Assembly (NCBI RefSeq): GCF_004323735.1
Contig: NZ_CP036455.1
Span: 2,413,101 to 2,477,100 of the forward strand
Length of the DNA stretch: 64,000 nt
From: Streptomonospora litoralis
GTDB lineage: Bacteria; Actinomycetota; Actinomycetes; Streptosporangiales; Streptosporangiaceae
Direction of reading: 5' to 3'
Shown here piece after piece: positions 40,141-62,522 of the stretch. The notes under the pieces were generated by a model, which was not told the origin of the DNA, did no database searches, and worked only from the letters and a program-made list of their open reading frames with translations. Numbering within the stretch: position 1 is the first letter of the stretch; every line of letters begins with the position of its first letter. The position numbers were made by a program, and so were the translations under genes.

Positions 40141-40214
40141 TGCCCTGAGTGGGATTCGAACCCACACTGTACGAGGTTTGAGCTCGCTCGCTCTGCCGGT
40201 TGGCGTATCAGGGC
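40141..40214 (-). tRNA. tRNA-Leu (anticodon CAA) with short variable loop
   Basis: 74 bases. Acceptor stem GCCCTGA/TCAGGGC is perfect, anticodon stem GCGAG/CTCGT has one G-U pair, loop CTCAAAC gives anticodon CAA, and the T arm is GTGGG-TTCGAAT-CCCAC. The D stem is only three pairs (CGC/GCG), with GG in the loop. The 3' CCA is not encoded. Leucine tRNAs normally have a long variable arm; here it is five bases (ACAGT), a class I shape. Identity follows from the anticodon only. Confidence 0.85.
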
Positions 40215-48353: not shown

Positions 48354-51122
48354 GTGGCGACGACACAGCAGACCCCCGGACAGAACGGTACGCCCACGAG
48401 CCGGCAGGGCCCGCCCGAGTGCGGGCGGCTGCTGCTGCTGGACGGGCACTCCATGGCCTTCCGCGCGTTCTACGCGCTGCCGGTCGAGAAGTTCACCACC
48501 AGCACGGGCCAGTCCACCAACGCCATCTACGGCTTCACCTCGATGCTGATCAAGCTGCTGCGCGACGAGCAGCCCACCCACATCGCGGTCGCCTGGGACC
48601 TCTCCGGGCCCACGTTCCGGGACGAGATCTACACCGACTACAAGGCCGGCCGCGCCGAGGCCCCCGCGGAGTTCCCCTCGCAGGTGGAGTTCGTCCAGGA
48701 GCTGCTGCGGATGCTGGGCGTCACCAGCGTCTCCGTAGCCGGCTACGAAGCCGACGACGTCATCGCCACCCTCACCGCCCGCGCCCGCGAAGAGGGCATG
48801 GAGACCCTCATCGCCTCCGGCGACCGGGACGCGTTCCAGCTGGTCGACGAGAGCTGCACGGTGCTCTACCCCGGCCGCAGTGTCTCCGACCTCACCCGCA
48901 TGACCCCCGAGGCCGTCGAGACCAAGTACGGCGTGCCGCCCGAGCGCTACCGCGACCTCGCCGCCCTTGTCGGCGAGAAAGCCGACAACCTGCCCGGCGT
49001 TCCCGGAGTGGGCCCCAAGACCGCCGCGAAGTGGATCACCAAGTACGGGTCGCTGGACGAGCTGGTCGCCCGCGCCGACGAGCTCACCGGCAAGGCCGGG
49101 CAGAACCTCCGCGACCACCTCGACCAGGTACTGCGCAACCAGCAGCTGAACCGCCTCGACCCCGACGTCGAGGTCGAGCGCCCCGTGCGCGAGCTCACCC
49201 CCGGCGAGGCCGACCGCTCGGGCGTGCACACCCTCTTCGACAACCTGGAATTCGCCTCCACCCTGCGCGACCGCCTCTTCGCCGTCCTGGGCGACACCGA
49301 GGAGGGCGCGCCGGAGGCCGCCGACGAAGGGTTCACCGTCGACCTCACCGTGCCCGCGCCCGGCGCGCTCGGCGCCTGGCTGGAGGCCAACGCCTCCGAC
49401 GGCGCGCGCTGCGGGCTGGCCGTCGCGGGCACCTGGGGCGCGGGCACCGGCGGCGTCGGCGGTCTGGCCCTCGCCTCCGGCTCGGGCCCGGCGATCTTCG
49501 TCGACCCCGCCGACCTGGGCGCCGAGGACACCGCGGCACTGGCCTCCTGGCTCGCCGACCCGGAGAGCCCCAAGGCCCTGCACGACGCCAAGGGCCCGCT
49601 GCTGGCGCTGTGGGCGCAGGGTTTCGAGCTGCACGGCCTCACCAGCGACACCGCGCTGGCCGCCTACATCGTCCAGCCCGGCGGACGCAAGTTCGAGCTG
49701 CCCGACCTCTGCCGCCGCTTCCTCAACCGCGAGCTGGGCGAACAGCAGGGCGACTCCGGCCAGCTCTCCCTCGACATCGGGGGTGCGGTTGCAGACGACG
49801 ACCACCGCGGGGCAGAGCGCCTGGAACTGGCGACCCGCGCCCGCGCCACCCTCGACCTGGCCGCGGGACTCGACCTCGATCTGGACAAGCGGGGCGGCGC
49901 CGCGCTGCTGCGCGACGTCGAGCTTCCGCTGCTGCGCGTGCTGGCGCGCATGGAGCGCACCGGAATCGCCGCGGACCGCGGCTACCTCGACTCGCTGGAG
50001 GAGGAGTTCGCCGCCGCGGTGCGCCAGGCGGTCGACGAGGCGCACCGGGCGGTGGGCCGGGAGTTCAACCTGGGCTCGCCCAAGCAGCTCCAGCAGATCC
50101 TCTTCGAGGAGCTGGACCTGCCCAAGACCAAGCGCATCAAGACCGGCTACACCACCGACGCCGACGCGCTCGCGTGGCTGGCCGAGCGCACCGACAACGA
50201 GCTGCCGGTCATCCTGCTGCGCCACCGCGACCAGACCCGGCTGCGCACCACCGTCGAGGGCCTGATCAAGACCATCGCCGAAGACGGCCGCATCCACACC
50301 ACCTACAACCAGACCGTCGCCGCCACGGGCCGCCTCAGCTCGGTCGAGCCCAACCTGCAGAACATCCCGGTGCGTACCGACGCCGGCCGCCGCATCCGGC
50401 GCGCCTTCGTGGTGGGCGAGGGCTACGCCGACCTCCTCACGGCCGACTACAGCCAGATCGAGCTGCGGATCATGGCCCACCTCTCCGAGGACGAGGCGCT
50501 CATCGAGGCGTTCCAGACCGGTCACGACTTCCACGCCGAGATCGCGGCACGGGTGTTCGGCATCGGCGTCGACGAGGTCGACGGCGAGGCCCGCGCCCGG
50601 ATCAAGGCGATGAACTACGGCCTGGCCTACGGGCTCAGCGAGTACGGGCTCTCTCAGCAGCTGGGCATCACCCCCAAGGAGGCCAAGGGCCTCATGGACG
50701 ACTTCTTCGTCCAGTTCGGCGGCGTCCGCGACTACCTGCGCGCCGTCGTCGACCGCGCCCGCCGCGACGGCTACACCGAGACCATGCTCGGTCGGCGCCG
50801 CTACCTGCCCGACCTCACCAGCGACAACCGCCAGCGCCGCGACATGGCCGAGCGCATGGCGCTGAACGCGCCCATCCAGGGCTCGGCCGCCGACATCATC
50901 AAGGTCGCCATGCTCGACGTCGAAGCCGGGCTGCGCGAGGGGGGTTACCGCTCGCGGATGCTGCTTCAGGTGCACGACGAGCTCGTACTGGAGGTCACCG
51001 AGGACGAGCTCGACAACGTCCGGAAACTGGTTTCGGAAAAGATGTCGGGCGCCTATGATCTCCGGGTGCCGCTGGCCGTTTCGGTGGGAATCGGCCGCGA
51101 CTGGCACGACGCCGCGCACTGA
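48354..51122 (+). CDS. polA: DNA polymerase I
   Basis: 922 residues. Repair and Okazaki-fragment polymerase. The N-terminal 5' nuclease has GYEADDVIATL and SGDRDAFQLVDE and a helix-hairpin-helix (LPGVPGVGPKTAAKW). The middle 3'-5' exonuclease domain (about 320-500) lacks the acidic DxE motif (GLAVAGTWG stands there), so proofreading should be absent, as usual in actinobacteria. Polymerase motifs A (DYSQIELRIMAH, about residue 698), B (RIKAMNYGLAYG) and C (QVHDELVLEV) are intact. GTG start six bases after TAGGAT suggests a leaderless mRNA. Confidence 0.97.
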   Translation: MATTQQTPGQNGTPTSRQGPPECGRLLLLDGHSMAFRAFYALPVEKFTTSTGQSTNAIYGFTSMLIKLLRDEQPTHIAVAWDLSGPTFRDEIYTDYKAGRAEAPAEFPSQVEFVQELLRMLGVTSVSVAGYEADDVIATLTARAREEGMETLIASGDRDAFQLVDESCTVLYPGRSVSDLTRMTPEAVETKYGVPPERYRDLAALVGEKADNLPGVPGVGPKTAAKWITKYGSLDELVARADELTGKAGQNLRDHLDQVLRNQQLNRLDPDVEVERPVRELTPGEADRSGVHTLFDNLEFASTLRDRLFAVLGDTEEGAPEAADEGFTVDLTVPAPGALGAWLEANASDGARCGLAVAGTWGAGTGGVGGLALASGSGPAIFVDPADLGAEDTAALASWLADPESPKALHDAKGPLLALWAQGFELHGLTSDTALAAYIVQPGGRKFELPDLCRRFLNRELGEQQGDSGQLSLDIGGAVADDDHRGAERLELATRARATLDLAAGLDLDLDKRGGAALLRDVELPLLRVLARMERTGIAADRGYLDSLEEEFAAAVRQAVDEAHRAVGREFNLGSPKQLQQILFEELDLPKTKRIKTGYTTDADALAWLAERTDNELPVILLRHRDQTRLRTTVEGLIKTIAEDGRIHTTYNQTVAATGRLSSVEPNLQNIPVRTDAGRRIRRAFVVGEGYADLLTADYSQIELRIMAHLSEDEALIEAFQTGHDFHAEIAARVFGIGVDEVDGEARARIKAMNYGLAYGLSEYGLSQQLGITPKEAKGLMDDFFVQFGGVRDYLRAVVDRARRDGYTETMLGRRRYLPDLTSDNRQRRDMAERMALNAPIQGSAADIIKVAMLDVEAGLREGGYRSRMLLQVHDELVLEVTEDELDNVRKLVSEKMSGAYDLRVPLAVSVGIGRDWHDAAH

Positions 51123-51451
51123 GCGCCTGCGGCCCGCTGATCGGGAATCCCCAGCCGGTCGGCCCGTTGCGGATGCGGTGCCGGATGCCCGGCGAGGAAC
51201 CTGCCGGGATGGCTCGGAGCCGGTACCACCGCGGGTTGCGGCAACGGCCGGCAGCTCGCTCAGCGGGCGGGACAGCTTGCCGTCTAGCGCACGCCGCACC
51301 TGTCAGGCCGGGCATCGCCGTCGGGCCGTGCCCCGTTTCCGCGGCCGGGGTGGCGGCGGCGTGATCGGCGGGTATGCCGACAGAGCGGTCGTGTGACAGC
51401 GCCGGCAGCCGGCTCGGCGGTCGGTCGGGAGCCGAAGGGAGGCGGTGCGCT
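51123..51451 (+). other. Gene-free stretch between polA and arfB
   Basis: About 330 bases. No frame with a motif or SD, and no strong simple terminator seen. It could hold the arfB promoter. Confidence 0.3.
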
Positions 51452-51892
51452 ATGCCGTCGGACACACGCGGAGGCGGGCGCGAAGCACCCGCGGTCGGGC
51501 TGCGCGACAACGAACTCGCCTGGCGCTTCTCCCGCTCCGGCGGTCCGGGCGGCCAGCACGCCAACACGGCCGACACCCGGGTTTCGCTGTCGCTGGACGT
51601 CGCCGCCACCGAGGCGCTCACCTCCGAGCAGCGCGAGCGGGCACTGCGCCGGCTCTGTGGACGGCTGAGCGGGACCGTGCTGACCGTCACGGTCGAGGAG
51701 CACCGATCCCAGGCACGCAACCGCGAACTCGCCCGGGAGCGGCTCGCCGAGGTGCTTGCCTCCGCCGCCGCCCCCGGTCCCCGGTCGCGGCGGCCCACCA
51801 AGCCCACCCGCGGCTCCAAGGAGCGCCGCCTCGCCGCCAAGAAGCGCCGTTCCCAGGTCAAGCGGATGCGCGGGCGCGGCGGCGAGGATTGA
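51452..51892 (+). CDS. arfB: ArfB-type peptidyl-tRNA hydrolase
   Basis: 146 residues. Release-factor-like catalytic domain with the GGQ loop in RSGGPGGQHANTADTRVSL, and a very basic C-terminal tail (RGSKERRLAAKKRRSQVKRM) that enters the empty mRNA channel. ArfB releases nascent chains from ribosomes stalled without a stop codon. GGGAGG lies about nine bases before the ATG. The size fits ArfB rather than RF1 or RF2. Confidence 0.9.
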   Translation: MPSDTRGGGREAPAVGLRDNELAWRFSRSGGPGGQHANTADTRVSLSLDVAATEALTSEQRERALRRLCGRLSGTVLTVTVEEHRSQARNRELARERLAEVLASAAAPGPRSRRPTKPTRGSKERRLAAKKRRSQVKRMRGRGGED

Positions 51893-52033
51893 ACCGCGAT
51901 GCGACGCGCCCGGCCCCGGTCGGCTTACGCCGCGCCGCGCCGCGACCGGATCCGCCCCGGCGCCGGGACCGGCGGTGCCGTGGCGATAGCATGCTCGGTT
52001 GCACTCTCGGTGGGTTTGTCGCCCGCTTTCCGA

Positions 52034-52062
52034 TTGACCTGGAGGGCCGCGTCTCATAGTGT
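52034..52062 (+). promoter_or_regulatory. Promoter of rpsA
   Basis: TTGACC, exactly 17 bases, TAGTGT: the best housekeeping promoter in the window. The start point would be near 52069, giving a leader of about 245 bases. Confidence 0.7.
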
Positions 52063-52068
52063 GGCGAG

Positions 52069-52314
52069 AGCGTTGTGGACTCGCGTGCGCAACCCGACCT
52101 CGGAGATCGTGCCGGTGTGACAGCCAGATCGCATACTCGACTCGACCCCCCGAGGGTCATCGGGGGGCGTGGCGGCGGTCGGCACCCTGGGATACGCGAA
52201 GAGACCCGAGCCACGGCTCGGGCCCGAAGTCGTCTCGACGGTGGTGGTGATGCAGCCGCGTGAATCCGCGGCGCACCTATTCTGCCAATGTCCGTATCCG
52301 GAGTCCACCCACAC
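52069..52314 (+). promoter_or_regulatory. Structured 5' leader of rpsA
   Basis: Hairpins CCCCCCGA-GGGTCA-TCGGGGGG (52146-52167), CCGAGCC-AC-GGCTCGG (about 52207) and GCCGCG-TGAATC-CGCGGC (about 52256). No leader peptide is evident. Ribosomal protein S1 represses its own mRNA in E. coli, so a control role is possible here, but this is inference. Confidence 0.45.
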
Positions 52315-53823
52315 ATGACGAGCAGCACAGAGGTAACCTCGACACCCCAGGTAGCGGTCAACGACATCGGGTCCGAGGAAGCCTTCCTCGCGGCGATCGA
52401 CGAGACCATCAAATACTTCAACGACGGTGACATTGTCGAAGGCACCATCGTGAAGGTCGATCGAGACGAGGTCTTGCTCGACATCGGCTACAAGACCGAG
52501 GGTGTTATCCCGTCCCGGGAACTGTCGATCAAGCACGACGTCGACCCCGGCGAGGTCGTGACCGTCGGCGACCACGTCGAGGCCCTCGTCCTCCAGAAGG
52601 AGGACAAGGAAGGCCGCCTCATCCTGTCCAAGAAGCGCGCCCAGTACGAGCGCGCCTGGGGCACGATCGAGAAGATCAAGGAAGAGGAAGGCGTCGTCAC
52701 CGGCACCGTGATCGAGGTCGTCAAGGGTGGTCTGATTCTCGACATCGGACTCCGCGGCTTCCTCCCGGCCTCGCTCGTCGAGATGCGCCGCGTGCGCGAC
52801 CTCCAGCCCTACGTGGGCCGCGAGCTCGAGGCCAAGATCATCGAGCTCGACAAGAACCGCAACAACGTCGTGCTCTCCCGCCGGGCCTGGCTGGAGCAGA
52901 CGCAGTCGGAGGTCCGCCAGACCTTCCTCAACACCCTGCAGAAGGGCCAGATCCGCAAGGGCGTCGTGTCCTCCATCGTCAACTTCGGCGCCTTCGTCGA
53001 CCTCGGCGGCGTCGACGGTCTGGTGCACGTCTCGGAGCTGTCCTGGAAGCACATCGACCACCCCAGCGAGGTCGTCGAGGTGGGCCAGGAGGTCACCGTC
53101 GAGGTGCTCGACGTCGACATGGAGCGCGAGCGCGTCTCCCTGTCCCTCAAGGCCACCCAGGAAGACCCCTGGCAGCAGTTCGCCCGCACGCACCAGATCG
53201 GCCAGGTCGTTCCCGGCAAGGTCACCAAGCTGGTGCCGTTCGGCGCGTTCGTCCGCGTCGAGGAGGGCATCGAGGGCCTCGTGCACATCTCCGAGCTGGC
53301 CGAGCGCCACGTGGAGATCCCCGAGCAGGTCGTGCAGGTCGGCACCGAGATCTTCGTCAAGATCATCGACATCGACCTCGACCGCCGGCGCATCAGCCTC
53401 TCGCTGAAGCAGGCCAACGAGAGCGTCTCGCCCGACCAGGTCGACTTCGACCCCACGCTGTACGGCATGGCGGCCGACTACGACGAGCAGGGCAACTACA
53501 AGTACCCCGAGGGCTTCGACCCCGAGAGCGGCGAGTGGCTCGAAGGCTTCGAGGTCCAGCGCGACGAGTGGGAGCGCCAGTACGCCATGGCGCAGTCCCG
53601 CTTCGAGGCGCACCGCAAGCAGGTCGAGGACGCCCAGGCGGCCGAGGCCGAGGCCGGCCCCGAGCAGCCCTACGAGGGCGGTGAGCCCGCGGCCGCCCCG
53701 AGCAACACCGGCACCGGCGGCGGTGGCGGTGGCGGCGCCGAGCCCGACACCGGCGGCGCCCTCGCCTCCGACGAGGCGCTGGCCGCGCTGCGCGAGAAGC
53801 TCGCGGGCGGCTCCGAGGGCTAG
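52315..53823 (+). CDS. rpsA: 30S ribosomal protein S1
   Basis: 502 residues, four S1 (OB-fold) domains as in other actinobacteria: VEGTIVKVDRDEVLLDIGYK, VTGTVIEVVKGGLILDIGLR, RKGVVSSIVNFGAFVDLGGV and VPGKVTKLVPFGAFVRVEEG. A disordered Gly/Ala/Glu tail follows (GTGGGGGGGAEP). It helps recruit mRNA to the ribosome. ATG 52315 (MTSSTEV) matches the family N-terminus; an in-frame ATG 27 bases upstream is less likely. The SD is weak, as is frequent for rpsA. Confidence 0.97.
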   Translation: MTSSTEVTSTPQVAVNDIGSEEAFLAAIDETIKYFNDGDIVEGTIVKVDRDEVLLDIGYKTEGVIPSRELSIKHDVDPGEVVTVGDHVEALVLQKEDKEGRLILSKKRAQYERAWGTIEKIKEEEGVVTGTVIEVVKGGLILDIGLRGFLPASLVEMRRVRDLQPYVGRELEAKIIELDKNRNNVVLSRRAWLEQTQSEVRQTFLNTLQKGQIRKGVVSSIVNFGAFVDLGGVDGLVHVSELSWKHIDHPSEVVEVGQEVTVEVLDVDMERERVSLSLKATQEDPWQQFARTHQIGQVVPGKVTKLVPFGAFVRVEEGIEGLVHISELAERHVEIPEQVVQVGTEIFVKIIDIDLDRRRISLSLKQANESVSPDQVDFDPTLYGMAADYDEQGNYKYPEGFDPESGEWLEGFEVQRDEWERQYAMAQSRFEAHRKQVEDAQAAEAEAGPEQPYEGGEPAAAPSNTGTGGGGGGGAEPDTGGALASDEALAALREKLAGGSEG

Positions 53824-53863
53824 GGCCAGTCCCTCCGCCGCGCGAGTCGACACGCGAATCGCC

Positions 53864-53895
53864 AAGGGCCGCTCCCGGGAACGGGGGCGGCCCTT
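53864..53895 (+). terminator. Terminator after rpsA
   Basis: AAGGGCCGCTCCCG, loop GGAA, CGGGGGCGGCCCTT: about 14 pairs with one T-G wobble. Confidence 0.78.
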
Positions 53896-53942
53896 CGCTA
53901 TGATCCGGCACAGCCGCGATCACCGAAGCGACGGGAGCAGCG

Positions 53943-54458
53943 ATGCCCACCCCGCCCGATCCGGTCGTCGGCCCGGCCGAGGTCGCCGACGCCGGCGAGA
54001 TCTGGACGCTGCAGCGGGCGGCGTTCGTCGACGAGGCCCAGCTTTACGGCGACCCGTTCGTGCTGCCGCTGGCCGAGACCGCCGACAGCATCCGGCGCGG
54101 CATCGAGGGCGGCGCCCACGTGCTCAAGGCCGTGCGGGACGCGCGAATCGTGGGCGCCGTGCGCGGGCGCGCCGACGGCACGACAGCCCTGGTCAACCGG
54201 CTATGCGTGGCTCCCGACCAGCGCCGCCGCGGAATCGCGCGGGCGCTGATGTCGGCATTGGAGGAGCGCCTGGCCGACGCGCACCCCGCCGTGGCCGTGT
54301 TCACGGTCTCCGCGGGCCAGCAGAGCGACGCCGCCCTGCGCCTGTGCCGCGGCCTGGGCTATGCCGAAACCCACCGCGAACGGATGGACGACCACCTCGC
54401 CCTGGTGCATCTGCGCAAGGCGGTCCCCGGCCGCACGCCCGAGACCGCGGCCCTCTAG
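53943..54458 (+). CDS. GNAT-family acetyltransferase
   Basis: 171 residues. Acetyl-CoA site [20 protein letters not shown] (the R/QxxGxG/A loop), then [20 protein letters not shown] near the C-terminus. Substrate unknown. GGGAG precedes the ATG. Its stop codon TAG doubles as the first bases of the coaE -10 box. Confidence 0.83.
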
Positions 54459-54461
54459 AGT
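54456..54461 (+). promoter_or_regulatory. -10 box of coaE inside the preceding stop codon
   Basis: TAGAGT, where TAG is the stop of the acetyltransferase gene, seven bases before the coaE ATG. Predicts a leaderless coaE transcript. Confidence 0.45.
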
Positions 54462-54468
54462 CGCCGAC

Positions 54469-55062
54469 ATGCTGCGTGTGGGACTCACCGGAGGTATCGG
54501 ATCCGGCAAGAGCGCGGTGGCCCGGCGGCTCGCCCGCCACGGCGCCCTGATCGTCGACGCCGACAAGATCGCCCGCGAGGTCGTCGAACCGGGCACCTCG
54601 GGCCTGGAGGAGATCGTCGCGGAGTTCGGCACCGAGGTGCTGACCGAGGACGGCGCACTCGACCGCCCCCGCCTCGGCGAGATCGTCTTCTCCGACACCG
54701 CCAAGCTCGCCAAGCTCAACGCCATCGTCCACCCGCGGGTGGGCAAGCGCACCGAGGAGCTGATGGCGAAGGCCTCGGCGAACGCCGTGGTGGTCTACGA
54801 CGTCCCGCTGCTGGTGGAGAACGACCTCGGCGGCCTCTACGACGTCGTCGTGGTGGTCGACGTCCCCGTCGAGGAACAGGTCGCGCGCGTGGTGCGCGAC
54901 CGGGGCATGGACGAGGCCCAGGTCCGATCCCGCATCAAGGCCCAGGCCACCAGAGACCAGCGCCGCGCGGCCGCGGACATCGTCGTCGACAACTCCGGCA
55001 CCGAGGAGGAGCTGGACACCCGGGTCGCCGAGGTGTGGGAGCGGTTGCGCGAACGGGCGTGA
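54469..55062 (+). CDS. coaE: Dephospho-CoA kinase
   Basis: 197 residues. Last step of CoA synthesis. P-loop [14 protein letters not shown] at the N-terminus, [31 protein letters not shown] and the lid region [16 protein letters not shown] are typical. The C-terminal GrpB-like domain found in mycobacterial CoaE is absent. No SD; see the overlapping -10 box. Confidence 0.95.
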
Positions 55063-55108
55063 GGGGGCGCGGGGGCCGCAGGTGATTTATATAAGAAGGG
55101 GGCCTGAG

Positions 55109-55663
55109 ATGTCGACGCCCGTATCGGCTGCCGAGCACGACCTCGCCGCGCTCGCCGACCACCTCGACCCTCCCGAGGGCTACCGGGTGGAGATCATCGC
55201 AGCGAACCTGGTCGTCTCCCCGACCCCGGTGGGTCCCCGTATCAAGATCGCGTCGCGTCTGCAGTACGCCCTCCGCGACGTGCTTACGCCCGATCTGGAA
55301 ATCGCGCAGACGGCAACCCTCGTCATCCCCCATACGGGAGAGCGCTACGTCCCCGACCTCGTGGTGCTGCCCGAGACACTGCTCGACGAGCACATATGGA
55401 AGTTCCCCGCAACGCAAGCTCTCCTGGCGGTGGAAATCACTTCGCCGGGCAACGCCGAGACCGACCGGGTCAAGAAGCCGCGCGGCTACGCCCTGGGGGA
55501 GGTGCCGGCCTACCTGCTCATCGACACCGAGCACGGGCGGTGGACCCTGTTCGAGGAGCCGGAGCGCGGGGTCTACCAACGCCAAACGCAGGTGAACACA
55601 GGCGCCAAGCTGCTGCTGCCGCACCCCTTCACCGGCCCCGTCGACACCGCACGAATCGTCTGA
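55109..55663 (+). CDS. Uma2-family PD-(D/E)xK nuclease-like protein
   Basis: 184 residues. GYRVEIIAANLVVSPTP, YVPDLVVLP (catalytic Asp), LLAVEITSPGNAETDRVKK (Glu and Lys of the nuclease site) and YLLIDTEHGRWTLFEEP are the Uma2 pattern. Many such genes occur per actinomycete genome; their role is unclear. AAGGGGG lies seven bases before the ATG. First gene of the accessory block after coaE, with an A/T-rich upstream word (GATTTATATAAG). Confidence 0.85.
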   Translation: MSTPVSAAEHDLAALADHLDPPEGYRVEIIAANLVVSPTPVGPRIKIASRLQYALRDVLTPDLEIAQTATLVIPHTGERYVPDLVVLPETLLDEHIWKFPATQALLAVEITSPGNAETDRVKKPRGYALGEVPAYLLIDTEHGRWTLFEEPERGVYQRQTQVNTGAKLLLPHPFTGPVDTARIV

Positions 55664-55672
55664 GCAAACGCA

Positions 55673-55879
55673 TTGAACGCCCAAACCGCCCACGCGAACC
55701 GCACGCGGGCCGAGCCGGTGCCTCGCGGCACGGGAGCGAACCTGCGTGCTGCCTTAGAGGATGTTCCACCGCCGGACGACCGCTTCGCCGCGGATATTGC
55801 CGACGCCCTTGCCTTGGTTGGGGACGGATTCATCCCTTGTCGCGGCAATGCGTCTGACGGATCGACGTCGGCCGTGTAG
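55673..55879 (+). pseudogene. Possible antitoxin remnant
   Basis: A 68-codon TTG frame with NLRAALEDVPPPDDRFAADI and ADALALVGDGF, a pattern I associate with small antitoxin proteins encoded before PIN-type toxins. No toxin follows, third positions are mixed, and the C-terminus loses character. Might equally be chance. Confidence 0.25.
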
Positions 55880-55960
55880 ACGAACCCGCATCCGCAGTAG
55901 CCTCCTGTTGACACAACCGGTCCGACGCGCCGCCGAGTTCGGTCGAGAAGGCAGTATGAG

Positions 55961-56188
55961 CTACCCCAACGTGCCGATTCGCTCGGCCTTGTGCCGATCG
56001 GCGACCTCGGCGGCCAGGTGGGTGGTGGAGCGTTCGGCGATGACCATGTCGGTGTTGAGGGGCAGGTGCGGGCCGTGCTGCTCCACAGAACCGACAGGCA
56101 GGCACAGGATCGACCGCTCGCTCAATTCGGCCGTGATGCGCGGTGCGGTCAGCCGCCCGTAGGGCCGCTCTTGGCCTTCAGCCGCCAT
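55961..56188 (-). pseudogene. Truncated creatininase-family gene (5' part only)
   Basis: 75 residues: YGRLTAPRITAEL, ILCLPVGSVEQHGPHLPLNT and DMVIAERSTTHLAAEVADRH. PVGSxEQHGPHLPxxTD is the metal-binding signature of the creatininase family (including MftE, which trims the mycofactocin precursor). Full members have about 230-260 residues; a stop follows after AERIGTLG and no other frame resumes convincingly. It overlaps the methyltransferase stop region by 11 bases and lies downstream of the HisRS/PP-loop/peptide cassette on the same strand. Confidence 0.62.
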
Positions 56189-56981
56189 CGCGGCTGCGCC
56201 GTCCCAGACGGATGAGGAACTCGTTCTCCTCGGAGAACGTGTCGTCGTCACTGAAGTCGGCCAGCCGGCTCTTCACCGCGGCCTCGAACTCCCTCACCCG
56301 GTTCCCGAAGAGGTGGGGCGCGGCGAAGGATGTGGAGTAGAGGTAGCCGAGGATGCTCTCCGCGGTCCAGGTGCGCTCGACGGGTATGCGGACTTCCTCG
56401 ACCTCGTTGAAGGGCGATTCGGCCATGAGGTCGCTATAGGGGCGGTTGTGGTGCCGGAACGTGCCGGCACCCGCACGACGCTCTTCGCCGAGAAAGCTCT
56501 TCACCACGCCGAGGACGGCTTCCTTCCACGGGCTGCCGGCGGCCCAGAAGCTGTTGTCGCTGAAGATGGCGACTAGGCCGTCGGAAGCGACCTGCTCGTC
56601 CAACAGGGACAGGACCGTGGCCTGATCGAGCCAGTGAAAGGCCCGGCAGATGGTGACGAGATCGGCCTGCCAACCGGTCGGCGGGATGAATGCCTCGGCT
56701 GTGTTCTGGACTAGGGACAGGCGAGCGTGCTCGGGGAGCTTGGTCCGCAGCGCCGACTCGGCGGCGGCAAGCATGTCCGCGTCGCTGTCGAGGCCGATGA
56801 CGTCGTCGAAGCGGTCCAGCAGCGCTTCCGCCACCAGGCCGGTCCCGGTGCCGATGTCCAGGAGGCGTCGTCGGCTGTCAGGGCGTGCGGGGGCGGCGCG
56901 GTTGAGGATCGACGCCACATCGTCCGGAATGCCGGGGCGGTACCAGCGGTAGTACGTGGCGACTCCGGTGAACAGGCTCAT
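56178..56981 (-). CDS. Class I SAM-dependent methyltransferase
   Basis: 267 residues. Motif I LLDIGTGTGLVAEALL, acidic loop VIGLDSDADML, NTAEAFIPP and DLVTICRAFHWLDQ (motif for a small-molecule type methyltransferase, close to the Methyltransf_11/25 group). C-terminal SILGYLYSTSFAAPHLFG is seen in relatives of unknown substrate. AAGGAG lies six bases before the ATG. Same strand as hisS but separated by 292 bases, so co-transcription is uncertain. Confidence 0.82.
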   Translation of the reverse strand: MSLFTGVATYYRWYRPGIPDDVASILNRAAPARPDSRRRLLDIGTGTGLVAEALLDRFDDVIGLDSDADMLAAAESALRTKLPEHARLSLVQNTAEAFIPPTGWQADLVTICRAFHWLDQATVLSLLDEQVASDGLVAIFSDNSFWAAGSPWKEAVLGVVKSFLGEERRAGAGTFRHHNRPYSDLMAESPFNEVEEVRIPVERTWTAESILGYLYSTSFAAPHLFGNRVREFEAAVKSRLADFSDDDTFSEENEFLIRLGRRSRDGG

Positions 56982-57273
56982 GCGTCGCTCCTTGCTACGA
57001 GGTGTTCGATGTGCTCGGCCGACGCCATCGAAACCGCTCTGGTGAACCTCACCTGACGGTACGGTCGCCCCATGACGACCAGCACTCACCTCGCAGACCT
57101 GGTGACCGACGCCGACCGCGAGGGGATTGAGCGACGCCCGTCGGGGCGGCGTTGCCGTAGCCCTGCGCGCGGTCCTCGGTGGTGGCCCAGACCGGTAGCC
57201 CTTGGCCGCGCAGCCGCTGACTGGTAGTCGCAGGCGCCGATCCCATGCCATGCCCAGCGCCTGCCCTGATTGC
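56982..57273 (-). other. Spacer between methyltransferase and hisS
   Basis: About 290 bases. On the minus strand a scrap (GLPVWATTEDRAQGYGNAAP) and on the plus strand another (MTTSTHLADLVTDADREG) look protein-like but are short and broken. Possibly the trace of a lost gene. Confidence 0.3.
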
Positions 57274-58572
57274 TCAACGCCCGAGGAGCCGCTCCACATA
57301 CGCGGCCGCGCCTTCGTCGGGCACCCTGTGCTGCTCGCCCGATGCCATATCCCGCACGGTCACCTCTCCGGCCGCCTGCTCGTCGGCGCCGCGGATGACG
57401 GCGAGCCGTGCCTGCTGCTCATGGGCCCACTTCAGCTGCTTGGCCAATTTGGTCGAGGAGCCCAGGTAGGTTCCCACGCGCAAGCCGCAGCGACGGAGGT
57501 CGTGGGCCAGCCGCAGCATTCCGCTCTCGTCGCCGCCGAGCGCGGTCAGGGCAACATCGAGGCCCTGCCCATCCTCGGCAGTCGTCTCCCGCATGGCGAG
57601 AATGCGCTCGATTCCCACCGAGCCGCCGACGGCGGGCACATCCGGACCACCCAAGGCGGCGACCAGTCGGTCATAGCGCCCGCCGGCGGCCACGGCGCCG
57701 GGATAGCCGGCCGCCTCGACCTCCCAGATGGCGCCCGTGTAGTAGTCCAATCCGCGCACCATTCGAGGCGCGAAGACGACGCGCCCGCCCAATCCTCCGG
57801 CCAGCTTCAGCAACTGGTCGATGTCGGCCAATCCCTGCTTGCCGCGCGGGTTGGCCTCCAGCTTCGCCCGGATCCGGTCGGGACTGTCGGCCGCGATGTC
57901 GGCGACGATGCCCTCGGCGGTGTCGGTAGCCACCCCGCGTTGCGCCAGCTCGGCGACAACAGCGTCACCACCGATCTTGTCGAGCTTGTCCAGGGCCGCC
58001 AATACGCCCTCGCCCGATTCGGCGCCGACACCATAGACCTCCAAGAGTCCGCGGAGCGCTTCGCGGCTGTTGACCAGGAAGCGGAAGTCGTCGACGCCGA
58101 GGGCCTCCAGCGCGTCGGCGACGGCGTAGACGACCTCGGCGTCGGCCAGTGGTGAGTGGGATCCGACGGTGTCGACGTCGCACTGGACGAACTCGCGGAA
58201 GCGGCCTTCTTGAGGCCGGTCGGCCCGCCAGACGGGGCCGATGGCGTAGCGCTTGAAGGGCGAGGGCAGCTTGGAGCCGTGGGTGCCGATCACGCGCGCC
58301 AAGGGCACGGTGTGGTCATAGCGCAACGCGAGGTCGGCCTGGCCGCCGGCCTCGTGGACACCGCGCCGCAGAATCTTGAACAGCAGGCTCGACGCCTCCT
58401 CGCCGTACTTGCCCGTGACGACCTCCAGCCGTTCGAAGGCCGGGGTTTCCAGCGGATCGAACCCGTAGCGCTCGAAGACCTCAGAGACGGCGGCGATGGC
58501 CGACTTGCGACGGCGCAGCTCGTCGGCGAGGAAGTCGCGGGTGCCGGACGGTGCTTGGGCGGCCTGGCCCAT
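57274..58572 (-). CDS. hisS: Histidyl-tRNA synthetase, probably a second copy
   Basis: 432 residues, full length. Class II motifs: motif 2 FKRYAIGPVWRADRP ... RFREFVQCDVDTVG, histidine-specific RYDHTVPLARV and RGLDYYTGAIWEV, motif 3 GGSVGIERILAM, then the anticodon-binding domain (VALTALGGDES ... VGTYLGSSTKLAKQLKWAHE). All catalytic residues I know are present, so it should charge His. Its context is accessory: it follows the PP-loop gene by 42 bases and is on the same strand as the 54-residue peptide gene. GGAGG lies nine bases before the ATG. It may be a resistance copy, or donate His-tRNA to a pathway. Confidence 0.9.
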   Translation of the reverse strand: MGQAAQAPSGTRDFLADELRRRKSAIAAVSEVFERYGFDPLETPAFERLEVVTGKYGEEASSLLFKILRRGVHEAGGQADLALRYDHTVPLARVIGTHGSKLPSPFKRYAIGPVWRADRPQEGRFREFVQCDVDTVGSHSPLADAEVVYAVADALEALGVDDFRFLVNSREALRGLLEVYGVGAESGEGVLAALDKLDKIGGDAVVAELAQRGVATDTAEGIVADIAADSPDRIRAKLEANPRGKQGLADIDQLLKLAGGLGGRVVFAPRMVRGLDYYTGAIWEVEAAGYPGAVAAGGRYDRLVAALGGPDVPAVGGSVGIERILAMRETTAEDGQGLDVALTALGGDESGMLRLAHDLRRCGLRVGTYLGSSTKLAKQLKWAHEQQARLAVIRGADEQAAGEVTVRDMASGEQHRVPDEGAAAYVERLLGR

Positions 58573-58614
58573 GGGTGTGGCCTCCTGCGTTGCGCTGTGT
58601 GATCGACGACAATC

Positions 58615-59862
58615 CTACTGCGGCCCCGAGGTGGTCGAACTCCACTGCGGAAAGTGCTCCATCAGCAGGTCGATCATGGCGGTCTGCTCCGGGGTTCGTC
58701 CGTGCCCGGTGTGCAGCAGCGGTGTCGTACCCACGCGCGAGAGGTCCTGCCACCCCTCGGTTTCCTCCATCAGCGATTTGATTCCACTCATCAGTGAAAG
58801 CGACATCTGCGGCACCAATGCATCGATGCAGTGGGCCAGATAGTAGATGGACGAGCGCCGCACCGCGGTGGAGTCGACCCGTTCGGCGTAGTTGCTCTCG
58901 CTCACGCTGGGATAGCAGGCGTCCAGCAGGCTCTTGGGTACGTCCCATACCGGCATGAGCACGTCGACCTCGCCGGTGCGGCGACGGGGGAACGGCAAGG
59001 GCCGGCGGCCGTTCATCAGCAGGAACAGCAGTTCGGCCATGACGTCCTCGCGTTGGTAGCCGACCAGCAGGTGGCCGGCTCCACGCTGTGCGCAGAGTGC
59101 GCGGCCTGCGAGGTTGACGAAGAAGGTGCCGAAGAAGTGAGAGGAGTCGGCACCGTACTGCTGCTTGAACTGCGCCCAGAGCGCGCGCGGCGACTCCCCC
59201 ATATCCAACAGCGCTGCAGCGTCGTCGGGGTAGAGAACGACGTGCTCGAATCCCGCTTCGGCACACAGCGCGCGGGCGCGCTGGGCCGCGGATTCGGGCC
59301 AGAGTGGCTCCATGACCAGGGTGAAACACGTGACCGCCGACGCATCCAGGTTGTGCTCGGCGGTGTAGCGACGCACGCCCTGCACGAGGCTGCTGCTGTC
59401 CCCGCCGCCGGAGATGCCCGCGACCAGCGGAACCGGGATCTCGTTATCGGCGAGGAAATCGGCGATCTTGCCGAAGACGATCTCGCGCATGGCGGCGTCG
59501 TCGACCAAGTGGGCCCGATGCTGGGGGTTCTTGTTCCGGTCGGCGTAGTCGAAGTCCAGCAGTGCTGTCGTCGGTTCGTCGGCGTGCCGGACGGTCTCGA
59601 TCTCGGCGGGGCGCAGCCCGTCGATGTCGGTGTTGCGCATGCACTGCAGCAGGACCGTGCGGTTCTCGGGTACCTGCCCGAGGGTCAGGGTCATGGGGAT
59701 CGGCTTCAACGATCCGTCTCCGGGCACTTCATATGCCTGGAACAACGACGGCGGAAGCCGGTTGGCCAGCAGCAACTCCGCCAGTGTCAGTTCCTGCGCC
59801 GATTTCAGCGGACGTGCGCCGGCGCTGAACAGGAGGGTGACCCTGTCGTTCCAGTCGTTCAT
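58615..59862 (-). CDS. PP-loop ATP pyrophosphatase of unknown substrate
   Basis: 415 residues. The PP-loop GISGGGDSSSLVQGV (about residue 165) marks the N-type ATP pyrophosphatase superfamily (TilS, TtcA, asparagine synthase C-domain), which adenylates a carbonyl or base and attaches N or S. A second motif region is FEHVVLYPDDAAALLDMGES, and the domain continues with AGHLLVGYQREDVMAELLFL. The N-terminal 140 residues match nothing I recognise. No Cys pair typical of TtcA is seen. GGAG six bases upstream favours ATG 59862 over 59874. It lies 42 bases after the peptide gene and 42 before hisS. Confidence 0.75.
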   Translation of the reverse strand: MNDWNDRVTLLFSAGARPLKSAQELTLAELLLANRLPPSLFQAYEVPGDGSLKPIPMTLTLGQVPENRTVLLQCMRNTDIDGLRPAEIETVRHADEPTTALLDFDYADRNKNPQHRAHLVDDAAMREIVFGKIADFLADNEIPVPLVAGISGGGDSSSLVQGVRRYTAEHNLDASAVTCFTLVMEPLWPESAAQRARALCAEAGFEHVVLYPDDAAALLDMGESPRALWAQFKQQYGADSSHFFGTFFVNLAGRALCAQRGAGHLLVGYQREDVMAELLFLLMNGRRPLPFPRRRTGEVDVLMPVWDVPKSLLDACYPSVSESNYAERVDSTAVRRSSIYYLAHCIDALVPQMSLSLMSGIKSLMEETEGWQDLSRVGTTPLLHTGHGRTPEQTAMIDLLMEHFPQWSSTTSGPQ

Positions 59863-59904
59863 AGCCATCTCCATTCCCTGACCCCCGGTGTGTCGGTCGT
59901 GTGC

Positions 59905-60069
59905 CTACAGGTGGGCGGTGAGCGCGGGGACGGCGAGGATCTCCTCGATGCGCTCGTCGGTCATGCGGTCGATTCCGCCCTCGGGCAGCGTGCGGGTGAT
60001 GATCCCCGCCAACTCGGTTGCGGGGGCAGGCGCCGTGGTCGTGGTGGGTGCGGCCGTCTGCGTGTTCAT
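59905..60069 (-). CDS. 54-residue peptide, candidate precursor
   Basis: Starts MNTQTAAPTTTTAPAPATEL, continues AGIITRTLPEGGIDRMTDER and ends IEEILAVPALTAHL. A very strong AAAGGAG lies seven bases before the ATG. It is the first gene of a minus-strand unit with the PP-loop protein and HisRS. A Thr/Ala/Pro-rich head, an acidic helix-like middle and a short hydrophobic C-terminus with one His are compatible with a leader-plus-core or carrier peptide. No Cys, no repeated core and no known RiPP signature. It could also be a small regulator. Confidence 0.6.
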   Translation of the reverse strand: MNTQTAAPTTTTAPAPATELAGIITRTLPEGGIDRMTDERIEEILAVPALTAHL

Positions 60070-60174
60070 GCGATCTCCTTTCGCTGGGCAAGCGACTCCT
60101 ACGGTGCCCCTGGCACGGCGAGGTCGGTAGTGAGAGGTGTCTGCACCCCCGGTGACCTGGAGTCCACAGTTGGT

Positions 60175-60194
60175 CAGTGCGAACCGTCGCACTG
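60175..60194 (+). promoter_or_regulatory. Palindromic operator in the divergent promoter region
   Basis: CAGTGCGA, four bases, TCGCACTG: a perfect 8-bp inverted repeat between the peptide gene and the regulator gene. A TAGCGT (-10-like) for the regulator lies 16 bases to its right. It probably binds the regulator encoded at 60256. Confidence 0.55.
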
Positions 60195-60255
60195 CGGGAT
60201 GGCGGGTGCTAGCGTCACAGCACGGACAACCCCACAGGCGACCGAGGACCGCGGT

Positions 60256-61698
60256 ATGGGAAGCGTTCACCCCCTGGATTGCGCACGCCGCATCCGCGCC
60301 GCAGCTCTCACCTCCAGCAGCGACCCCCAAGTCCGCGAACTCCACCGCATCGCCGAGGCCATTCGCAGCCACTGCGGACACACCCCCGTCAAATGCCACC
60401 GGCTGGCGTGGGGATGGACGGTCAACCAAGCCATCTCAGCGGCCCGTGCGCTCGCCGAGAACCACCGTGATCGCTATGCAGCCGTCGCGGTTTCCGAGCG
60501 ATCGTGGAAAGGCTGGGAGGCCGGCGACCGCCCGAACACCGGCTACCAGGACCTGCTTTGCCGCCTGTTCGCGACCGGTCCGGTGGGCCTCGGCTTCGCC
60601 GTGGACTACGCACCTCGCCCGAGCCCCCTTCCGATGCAGGCTGAGCCGCCCCCCGAGCCGCTGACCGAGCCGCGCTTGCGCAGCGATGCCCGAACCACCC
60701 TCCGGCGCAGCCAGGAGCTCGCTGACAACGCCCTGCACCACACGCAGCTCGACCAGATCGACGCCGACATCGACCGCATCGCCCGCGACTATGCCGCCCG
60801 CCCCGCGGCCGCCCTCTACGACGAGATCCGAGAACTGCGAACCTCGGCATTCCGCATGATCGAATCCGGCAGTCGGCCGAACCAGGCACGACGCCTGCAC
60901 CTGGCCGCCGCCCGGCTGGGTGGACTGCAAGCCCACATCTGCCTCGATCTGGGGCACTACACGTGGGCCGACACGAACGCCCGCGCCGCCTGGAACCTGG
61001 CCGACATAGCAGGGCACCGGGGCATGCTGGCCTGGTCCCGCGGGCTGCAGAGCCTCATCGCCTATTGGGACCGCCGTCCCCACGACGCCCTCGACGCCGC
61101 CCGCAGCGGTCTCGAGTACGCAGGCACCGACTCCAATCGCTCCCGTCTCCACGCGCTGACGGCCCGTGCTGCCGCGGAAGTCGGCGACCACACCACCATG
61201 CTCACCGCCATCTCCGGGATGGAGGAAGCCCGCACCCACACCGCCGAGGCGGACACGCCCCGGGGCCTGTTCGTCTTCCCCGCCGCCAAAGGCCACGTCT
61301 ACGCCGCGACCGCGCTGTTGAGCGCCGACCCCACAGCCCACGCGTCGCGAGCGCGAGAGCAAGCCGAACAGGCCATCCGTGTCTACACCGACCACGCCTC
61401 ACTCGAACGCTCCTCCGGCGACCTGCTGGCGGCCCACCTGGACCTGGCCACCGCGCACACCGCCGCGGGTGACCTCGACGCCCTCAGCGCTGCACTGGCG
61501 CCGGTCCTGGCCACACCCACCGATCGCCGCACCGCGTCCATACTGCGCCGCGCCGCCCTCCTCGCATCCCGACTCCGCAACGGCCTTCTCCGCAGCGCCG
61601 CCGAAGCCCACCGGCTCCAGGCCGACCTCACCGAGTTCTGCCGCGCACCCGCAGCACTTCCCGCGACGCTTCCCGAACGGCAGGATGAGCAACCATGA
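60256..61698 (+). CDS. Large XRE/TPR-type transcriptional regulator
   Basis: 480 residues. N-terminal region (about 1-130) with RLAWGWTVNQAISAARALAE and ERSWKGWEAGDRPNTGYQDL matches the DNA-binding head of actinomycete XRE-type regulators (W..G..P....L..L....). The rest is helical and repetitive (AARLGGLQAHICLDLGHYTW, RAAWNLADIAGHRG), like a tetratricopeptide sensor domain. ATG 60256 starts directly after an operator-like palindrome. Its stop overlaps the methyltransferase start (ATGA). It is divergent from the peptide/PP-loop/HisRS unit and probably controls it. Confidence 0.78.
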   Translation: MGSVHPLDCARRIRAAALTSSSDPQVRELHRIAEAIRSHCGHTPVKCHRLAWGWTVNQAISAARALAENHRDRYAAVAVSERSWKGWEAGDRPNTGYQDLLCRLFATGPVGLGFAVDYAPRPSPLPMQAEPPPEPLTEPRLRSDARTTLRRSQELADNALHHTQLDQIDADIDRIARDYAARPAAALYDEIRELRTSAFRMIESGSRPNQARRLHLAAARLGGLQAHICLDLGHYTWADTNARAAWNLADIAGHRGMLAWSRGLQSLIAYWDRRPHDALDAARSGLEYAGTDSNRSRLHALTARAAAEVGDHTTMLTAISGMEEARTHTAEADTPRGLFVFPAAKGHVYAATALLSADPTAHASRAREQAEQAIRVYTDHASLERSSGDLLAAHLDLATAHTAAGDLDALSAALAPVLATPTDRRTASILRRAALLASRLRNGLLRSAAEAHRLQADLTEFCRAPAALPATLPERQDEQP

Positions 61699-62522
61699 GC
61701 ACCGACCGGGTCAGCGCCACCACCGATCGTCGTCTTCTCGCCGAGCACGCCTACCGCAACGATGCGCACCTCTCGGCACGGCAGAAGCTCTACGACTTCC
61801 AGCAGCCCACCTACGATCTGCCCGGCCTGGTCGTCGATGCGCTCGACGACACGCACCGAACCGTGCTCGACCTGGGCTGCGGTAACGGCGCCTATCTCGA
61901 CCGTTTGCGCAGTGAGCGTCCACAGGCCGCCGTCATCGGTATCGACGCCGCGCCGGGCATGCTCGACGAGTTGGCCCCTCCGGTGCTGTGCGCCGATGCC
62001 GCAGACCTGCCCTTCAAGGCAGAGCGAGTCGACGCGGTACTGGCGATGCACATGCTCTACCACCTGGCCGACATCGATGCCGCACTGGCCGAGATCGCGC
62101 GCGTCCTCGCCCCTGGCGGGCTACTGGTCGCCTCGACGAACGCCGAGGACGACAAGGGGGAGTTGGACGACCTCTGGCAGGCCGCGGCCGGCGACGTGCT
62201 GGGCACCGGCCACGGGCCTCGCCGCATCCGCTTGTCCGATCACTTTCCGCTCGACGCCGGTGCCGCCAGGCTGAGAGAGCACTTCGCCGAAGTGAAAGTG
62301 CACGAGTTGACCGGTCGTATCGTCGTCGACGATCCGGCGCCCGTCCTGGACCACCTCGGCTCGTACCGCACGTGGGCCGCACAGGCGGGCGTTCCCTTCG
62401 ATGAGACGCTGCAACGCGCCCGCGAGAGGCTGGAAGGGACTATCACCAGCGCAGGAATGTTCACCGTTTCCACCCGGCAGGGCATCATCCGAGCGGCGAA
62501 GCCGGGAAGGAACGGCGAGTGA
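61695..62522 (+). CDS. SAM-dependent methyltransferase coupled to the regulator
   Basis: 275 residues. Motif I VLDLGCGNGAYLDRL, acidic loop VIGIDAAPGMLDEL, motif with VDAVLAMHMLYHLADIDAAL and LAPGGLLVASTN: a Methyltransf_11-type enzyme. The preceding residues RQKLYDFQQPTYDLPGLVVD are typical of small-molecule or peptide methyltransferases of actinomycetes. Overlaps the regulator by four bases, so both are made together. Substrate unknown; the product of the divergent cassette is a candidate. Confidence 0.85.
   Translation: MSTDRVSATTDRRLLAEHAYRNDAHLSARQKLYDFQQPTYDLPGLVVDALDDTHRTVLDLGCGNGAYLDRLRSERPQAAVIGIDAAPGMLDELAPPVLCADAADLPFKAERVDAVLAMHMLYHLADIDAALAEIARVLAPGGLLVASTNAEDDKGELDDLWQAAAGDVLGTGHGPRRIRLSDHFPLDAGAARLREHFAEVKVHELTGRIVVDDPAPVLDHLGSYRTWAAQAGVPFDETLQRARERLEGTITSAGMFTVSTRQGIIRAAKPGRNGE

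Follow-up and report, generated by a model that had tools for sequence, protein, structure and literature searches.

A conserved three-gene cassette of peptide, ubiquitin-like/PP-loop enzyme and second histidyl-tRNA synthetase in actinomycetes: a candidate peptide-modifying pathway

Why should a second, full-length histidyl-tRNA synthetase (HisRS) be encoded directly behind a gene for a peptide of 54 residues? The question arises in a stretch of 64,000 nucleotides of Streptomonospora litoralis (contig NZ_CP036455.1, positions 2,413,101 to 2,477,100; hereafter the window), taken from a genome of 5.8 Mb in 2 contigs that is 99.99% complete. Three minus-strand genes follow one another there in the order peptide, PP-loop ATP pyrophosphatase and HisRS, with intergenic gaps of 42 and 42 bases, and we confirmed the coordinates that a first-pass annotation of the window had given for them. 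The three-gene set is a conserved cassette and not a chance arrangement. It looks like an apparently undescribed route to a peptide-derived compound and to survival of it. In the explanation that we favour, tentatively and at somewhat less than an even chance, it is a minimal cassette of the RiPP type (ribosomally synthesized and post-translationally modified peptide): the PP-loop enzyme would activate the peptide, probably at its C-terminus, and the additional HisRS would shield the producing cell from a product of histidine type.

Order and orientation of the three genes were kept in all 14 loci that were read, which come from the genus of the window, Nocardiopsis, Sinosporangium and Streptomycetaceae. 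The gaps measured 35-87 bases between the peptide and PP-loop genes and 42-71 bases between the PP-loop and HisRS genes, and the flanks, compared by eye, varied, some being shared by close relatives (L053 and L055; L015 and L018). The first-pass annotation had held that a three-gene set recurring in other actinomycetes among varied flanks would speak for a pathway, and the conservation of the peptide and PP-loop genes beside this HisRS in other genomes bears it out. Genes in the fetched loci were called by a codon-usage script, so that start positions are approximate, and most neighbouring genes were identified by eye; L056 and L058 were not treated separately from L016 and L017 (G099 and G346). 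L062 and L063, both among the 14, each carry one frameshifted gene. The further locus L060 holds PP-loop and HisRS genes, the former with an unclear start, and a motif search found no peptide in it. Across 12 loci, L062 and L063 being excluded, distances co-varied between PP-loop and HisRS (r=0.90) and between PP-loop and peptide (r=0.85), with 0 of 2000 shuffles in each case. In the decayed copies (L018, L089), the PP-loop and HisRS genes are both broken.

Of 341 genomes in the window's family, 25 matched a PP-loop profile; by score, these comprise 13 full-length cassette-type proteins, one of the Gln type described below (G646), two remnants (G291, G525) and nine distant matches. In 13/13 of the full-length cassette-type genomes, the ends of the PP-loop and HisRS matches lay at most 100 bases apart. 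Among 394 sampled genomes of the class there were 12 matches, of which 4 were cassette-type, 1 was a remnant and 7 were weak; two scans of the class share this sample size and centre and are not independent. A sample of 375 genomes from a different family (f18) yielded 13 (2 cassette-type, 2 Gln-type, 2 enolase-type, 3 CC-type and 4 distant, one of the last, L143 of G711, being outside the loci read), and a scan of named genomes gave 13 loci, namely eight of Nocardiopsis, one of Sinosporangium album, two of Streptomyces and two of metagenome-assembled genomes. Within the window's genus the cassette is patchy, present in 2 of 6 genomes, and it is apparently mobile. Two observations on individual loci may be recorded here: two near-identical Cys/Ser-rich thiopeptide-like precursor genes lie 6 kb from the cassette at L017:14303-14960, and an enolase gene lies 5 kb upstream of it in Streptomyces sp. 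130 (L052:1313-2593).

The first-pass annotation called the peptide gene strongly translated; what stands of this is a good ribosome-binding site, AAAGGAG ahead of the ATG, which was its sole basis. The reading frame itself is real. Over the last 34 codons of the 14 homologues, the proportion of nonsynonymous differences (pN) was below that of synonymous ones (pS) in 88/91 pairs (mean pS 0.476, pN 0.227), against 24/91 and 11/91 pairs in the shifted frames, indicating that the frame is under protein constraint. The cassette peptides have 47-57 residues, with a variable N-terminal half and a conserved later part, which in most homologues reads TLPxxGxDRMTxxxxEE and then A(L/I)(T/C)AH with a terminal L, F, Y or I. 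A penultimate His followed by a hydrophobic end residue was found in 14/14, so that the conserved C-termini sought by the first-pass annotation beside the PP-loop family do exist. The locus has the make-up of a RiPP system, a ribosomal precursor, conserved towards its C-terminus, next to a candidate modifying enzyme. Acylation of a peptide lysine is unlikely and was rejected as a candidate, since 8 of the 14 peptides lack lysine and no lysine is conserved.

The second protein barely passed the Pfam Asn_synthase model (1.8e-4; 21.7 bits against a cut-off of 21); no NCBIfam model was over its cut-off, and a sequence search of the PDB returned 2 hits, at E of about 0.5. Its AlphaFold (AF2) model, with a pLDDT of 76, matched TtuA best in Foldseek, followed by NcsA, TilS and NadE, with a TM-score by target of 0.5-0.6 for TtuA and NcsA. 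The protein has the SGGxDS motif and, in the predicted model, the HUP fold of PP-loop ATP pyrophosphatases, enzymes that adenylate a carbonyl or carboxylate. Residues S151, G152, G153, D155 and S156 were kept in 25/25 family members, and D273 and K310 were likewise invariant across the 25 proteins of the tree. An alternative ATG 12 bases upstream is possible. For residues 1-125, AF2 gave a model (pLDDT 82) with the strand-strand-helix-strand topology of a beta-grasp domain. Its Foldseek matches were weak, none at E <= 0.001, and the top ones were mostly ubiquitin-like; TtuB chain 5gha_H of the TtuA-TtuB complex (5gha) matched at E 0.013, with ferredoxins and EAP domains lower. On these models, the enzyme resembles a TtuA with a TtuB joined to its N-terminus. 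It differs from the TtuA/TtuB system of tRNA thiolation in that, being fused, it is without a free sulfur-carrier C-terminus, and in that it stands beside peptide genes. TtuA and TtcA moreover need the cysteines of an Fe-S cluster (CxxC plus Cys). No CxxC occurs among the invariant cysteines of the alignment (A1; 74, 179, 200, 316), and Fe-S tRNA-type thiolation is therefore not implied.

The cassette HisRS scored 350.1 bits against TIGR00442 (cut-off 286.75), matched PF13393 and PF03129, and has a complete catalytic core and anticodon domain. The window genome encodes another HisRS (L002), which is 33-35% identical to it and is of a type also present in family members outside the cassette genomes (G397, G437, G449). 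The cassette gene is hence not the only hisS of the genome, and its assignment as the housekeeping copy was rejected. With the peptide and PP-loop genes also conserved beside it elsewhere, neither of the two circumstances that the first-pass annotation named as refuting its proposal applies. In the HisRS tree of 46 rows (the trees were built in quick mode with SH-aLRT support only, and the frameshifted HisRS of L063 was omitted), 14 cassette enzymes fell in one 15-row clade with an SH-aLRT of 95. The fifteenth row is L108 of G440, a single-contig genome that is 96% complete. The clade-type enzyme is the sole HisRS found in G440 at E <= 1e-20, and neither the peptide motif nor a PP-loop match occurs in the 14.5 kb read around L108. 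The cassette-type enzyme therefore probably works, and an enzyme of this kind would probably suffice for a cell by itself. Of the 12 HisRSs in the sister clade, 9 are listed as the sole over-cut-off HisRS of their genome. Judged by the tree, the cassette HisRS is of a housekeeping-type lineage different from the window genus's own. His at position 87, which we take to lie near the histidine site, replaces the Leu of the window genus's own HisRS in 15/15 rows of the clade. Nine alignment columns distinguish cassette from sister HisRSs, several of them matching other HisRS lineages. Two further HisRS arrangements were seen in passing, a tandem pair of HisRS-like genes in G397 (L106:6034-8698) and two further HisRS-like matches 3 kb apart in G513.

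These properties can be arranged into a mechanism. A peptide of some 50 residues, seen so far as a constrained reading frame, would be translated; the PP-loop enzyme would bind it, perhaps via the fused ubiquitin-like domain, and would use ATP to activate a carbonyl or carboxylate group in the conserved AH-hydrophobic terminus or close to it. The product itself, or a fragment with His that peptidases of the host release, may mimic histidine or histidyl-adenylate and poison HisRS, and the cassette HisRS, coming from another lineage, would then keep His-tRNA supplied as an insensitive second copy of the target. Self-resistance by a second aminoacyl-tRNA synthetase is known for indolmycin (TrpRS), mupirocin (IleRS) and albomycin (SerRS). 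The cassette likewise places a second, full-length synthetase from a different lineage within a candidate biosynthetic unit, and an additional HisRS above the hisS cut-off, besides which the cassette enzyme is the second, was found in 15/15 cassette genomes checked. Between the two roles that the first-pass annotation had guessed for HisRS, the evidence leans to self-resistance and less to attachment of His from His-tRNA, neither being proven.

A sister branch of the cassette-type PP-loop proteins offers a comparison. It comprises four loci (G646, G776, G838 and the Paenarthrobacter plasmid pB), whose peptides end ALTAQV, Gln taking the penultimate position in 4/4. Three different HisRS queries gave no match at these four loci, positive controls being found. 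G776 and G838 have one HisRS each. GlnRS was over the cut-off in 0/20 genomes tested, so that a product of the Gln type would not call for a spare synthetase, and the lack of an adjacent HisRS in the Gln branch fits self-resistance. A TauD-like oxygenase gene follows, by motifs, in G646, G776 and G838 (not established for plasmid pB; the G776 protein had no Pfam match), and a P450 gene follows as well, identified by Pfam at G776 and by motif or end similarity at the other Gln loci. AsnRS was likewise over the cut-off in 0/20 genomes; as a separate observation, G417, G471, G323, G674, G591, G595 and G503, which have no AsnRS over the cut-off, encode full-length AsnRS-like proteins that score 157-222 bits and thus stay under the asnS threshold.

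The pairing of peptide and PP-loop enzyme extends further. Profile comparison related the cassette enzyme to a second group with a probability of 99.6% and 21% identity over 371 columns. The enzymes of this group are ThiS-like/PP-loop proteins with CxxC pairs, and their peptides, in large clusters (L019, L020, L096, L097, L099, L100, L155, L156), end FRTTCTDCVPN[YF]; a variant in L098 ends FRTNCSDCVPNL, and those of L101/L102, listed as an ASR-ending branch, end FRTCCADPRASR. The L096 cluster holds genes for the ThiS-like/PP-loop enzyme, an M28 peptidase, a methyltransferase-aminotransferase, a FemAB-like acetyltransferase and a phosphodiesterase. Peptides ending CETGAQ stand with a PP-loop gene in L149:5638-11899 and L150:5532-11667, adjacent to a second enolase, a PhyH oxygenase and a ClpX-like ATPase; the second enolase is adjacent in 2/2 genomes of this branch, and the housekeeping enolase lies elsewhere. 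The Pantoea plasmid (L105) carries a related peptide, with no enolase seen in its annotation. Peptides with a CCNS motif (ESVxCCNSxIAxG) occur beside the same PP-loop family in L152, L153 and L154. Plasmid-borne members come from three phyla (L103, Paenarthrobacter pB; L104, Xenorhabdus plasmid II; L105, Pantoea; L145, Geobacillus pGS18) and are annotated merely as hypothetical proteins; one Gln-type relative sits on a conjugative plasmid. MFS transporter genes lie downstream in plasmid relatives, suggesting export there. At 23 loci of other branches no HisRS match was found, other synthetases not having been searched there, which supports the peptide and PP-loop enzyme as the biosynthetic core and HisRS as a branch-specific addition. 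A broader proposal, possible though doubtful, is that these loci form an undescribed, phylum-crossing class of ribosomal-peptide pathways, marked by a short peptide and a fused ubiquitin-like/PP-loop enzyme next to it. In some of its branches, a linked extra copy of an essential enzyme would name the target. The linked copies would be HisRS for the AH-hydrophobic branch and enolase for the CETGAQ branch, and the window would hold the smallest known HisRS poison-plus-antidote unit.

Several observations weigh against self-resistance. The cassette has no obvious exporter or protease gene. No active-site change separates the cassette HisRSs from every other lineage, and H87 is also found in 3 rows of the sister clade. 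The exchange of His for Gln together with the presence or absence of HisRS is one split of the tree and not a series of repeated events; since GlnRS is absent from all 20 genomes, its absence does not discriminate; and the Gln-type genome G646 has two HisRSs, on contigs other than that of the locus. As for the enolase branch, 2 of 8 genomes tested (G773, G735) have second enolases at sites remote from the peptide cluster, which speaks against a simple rule that the copied essential enzyme is the target, and the role of the enolase copy could be to provide substrate and not resistance.

Among the alternatives, a dedicated supply survives best, and we consider it rather improbable. The cassette HisRS would make His-tRNA(His), and the PP-loop or another enzyme would join His to the activated peptide C-terminus, with an outcome like that of the peptide aminoacyl-tRNA ligases (PEARLs). 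HisRS is adjacent, co-inherited and retains its anticodon domain, the PP-loop enzyme is structurally closest to the tRNA-modifying TtuA, NcsA and TilS, and a dedicated SerRS in valanimycin biosynthesis is a precedent. In a survey of predicted peptide operons (PMC2922099, Biol Direct 2010), a paralogous synthetase likewise stands beside peptide-making enzymes, some operons having an asparagine-synthetase-like PP-loop gene. The enzyme described there is of the class I MetRS type and accompanies non-ribosomal peptide synthetase or ATP-grasp genes, whereas in the cassette a ribosomal peptide goes with a class II HisRS; the terms 'HisRS' and 'histidyl' are absent from that text. PEARLs, according to PMC11962472, combine a small peptide gene, ATP activation of the C-terminal carboxylate and use of aminoacyl-tRNA. 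The cassette shares the small peptide gene and, as proposed here, ATP activation of the C-terminus, and a link to aminoacyl-tRNA is only possible; it differs in having a PP-loop enzyme and no LanB-like ligase gene (flanking genes were judged by eye and not model-scanned). A dedicated supply is weakened by the other branches, which have no adjacent HisRS, and by the conserved His, which is already encoded in the peptide. The cell, moreover, already makes His-tRNA, and the clade HisRS of G440 stands without peptide or PP-loop gene nearby.

Less probable still is a selfish toxin-antidote unit, in which the modified peptide would stay inside and kill cells that lose the cassette HisRS, so that the cassette would persist and spread by addiction and not by antibiotic export. 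Three genes with no exporter, the patchy distribution in the window's genus, the varied flanks, the Gln-type relative on a conjugative plasmid and the HisRS of G440, its only one, agree with this. However, G291 and G525 have both genes broken and possess another HisRS, and the MFS transporter genes in plasmid relatives speak for export.

We regard it as very unlikely that the peptide and PP-loop genes form a pathway to which HisRS is a passenger or translation backup without functional link. The sister clade, with its mostly sole HisRSs, does show that the enzyme comes from ordinary housekeeping stock. However, HisRS is the third gene in 14/14 loci read, at a close distance across varied flanks; it decays jointly with the PP-loop gene, its distances are strongly correlated with those of PP-loop, and independent loss or gain of HisRS beside an intact His-type pair was not seen in the 14 loci. 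Least of all do we expect that HisRS ligates His as adenylate directly to the peptide while the PP-loop enzyme does another step, since, although class II synthetase paralogues such as EpmA act on proteins, the peptides have no conserved lysine, the cassette HisRS keeps the anticodon domain that EpmA lacks, and no HisRS was found in G440 other than one of this clade.

Returning to the favoured explanation of peptide activation with self-resistance, we compared the cassette with known peptide systems. MccB, the nucleotidyltransferase of the microcin C family, is ThiF-like; the cassette has a PP-loop enzyme and no ThiF/MccB-type nucleotidyltransferase. Microcin C is by analogy the nearest known logic, as described in PMC7136475: a short ribosomal peptide, ATP-dependent activation of its C-terminus and an aminoacyl-tRNA synthetase as target, the last being presumed for the cassette. 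It differs from the cassette in its precursor of 7 residues, its exporter and self-immunity peptidase in place of a spare synthetase, and its target, AspRS. The asparagine-synthetase-like lasso cyclases are also PP-loop enzymes acting on a ribosomal peptide, as predicted here, and the Asn_synthase hit of the cassette enzyme was just over the cut-off; they differ in that the cassette enzyme has a ubiquitin-like N-terminus. Lasso systems have a leader peptidase and a recognition element beside the cyclase, and neither gene is present in the cassette, which consists of the peptide, PP-loop and HisRS genes only.

A full-text literature search, which covered the top-ranked results of mainly open papers and few subscription or bioRxiv papers, found, by title and abstract, no paper that describes this cassette or gives ubiquitin-like/PP-loop enzymes a role in RiPP biosynthesis, and no case of self-resistance by HisRS; the papers listed did not contain the phrase 'histidyl-tRNA synthetase inhibitor'. 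The class of the enzyme may turn out to be new. The family is a candidate for a new class-defining peptide-modifying family, spread, with short peptides alongside, over Actinomycetota, two gammaproteobacterial plasmids and one Geobacillus plasmid. If the favoured explanation is true, the product would be a candidate natural inhibitor of HisRS; we know of no established natural-product inhibitor of this enzyme. Consisting of three genes only, the cassette can be tested in a laboratory Streptomyces from one construct.

Table 1. Coordinates of the cassette and its divergent neighbours in the window.
Feature	Position	Strand	Basis or remark
Precursor-like peptide, 54 aa	59905-60069	-	C-terminus ...ALTAHL; alignments, 14 homologues, coding constraint
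Ribosome-binding site of the peptide gene, AAGGAG	60075-60080	-	Sequence
Ubiquitin-like/PP-loop ATP pyrophosphatase, 415 aa	58615-59862	-	Pfam Asn_synthase 1.8e-4; AF2; Foldseek
N-terminal beta-grasp (ubiquitin/TtuB-like) domain, about residues 1-80	59623-59862	-	AF2 and Foldseek
PP-loop motif SGGGDSS, residues 151-157	59392-59412	-	Family alignment
Second full-length HisRS, 432 aa, catalytic and anticodon-binding domains	57274-58572	-	TIGR00442, PF13393, PF03129, tree
Inverted repeat between the divergent units	60175-60194	.	Possible operator, from sequence; neighbour, not shown as cassette part
NsdA-family regulator	60256-61698	+	Divergent neighbour, outside the conserved cassette
Class I SAM methyltransferase	61695-62522	+	Neighbour, outside the conserved cassette

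The genes on the other side of the divergent region (Table 1) do not belong to the unit. The regulator and methyltransferase genes are divergent from the cassette and overlap, as the first-pass annotation had described; the overlap measures 4 bases. A tblastn search with the window's regulator and two methyltransferases gave no match in 18 other loci, so that both are neighbours and not members; of the five-gene pathway proposed at first, the peptide, PP-loop and HisRS genes were found conserved, and the other two were dropped. The perfect palindrome reported between the divergent units is an inverted repeat with 8-base arms interrupted by a 4-base loop (CAGTGCGA-accg-TCGCACTG). An RNA-family scan of the window detected one tRNA (40141-40214) and nothing at the cassette. 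PADLOC defence models matched 0 of 5 proteins, the three cassette proteins included, and a phage origin of the cassette is unsupported, no match being present in 50,697 phage records.

As to its setting, the window cassette lies downstream of polA-rpsA-coaE (48354-57274 region), and the decayed copy of G291 (L018:1-6860), a genome from a different genus, occupies the same place. The intact copy of the window's own genus (L015) sits elsewhere, and regulator-type flank genes are common to L015 and L018. Between the cassette and coaE, a truncated creatininase-family fragment (PF02633) is found at 55961-56251 of the window, with degraded DNA nearby.

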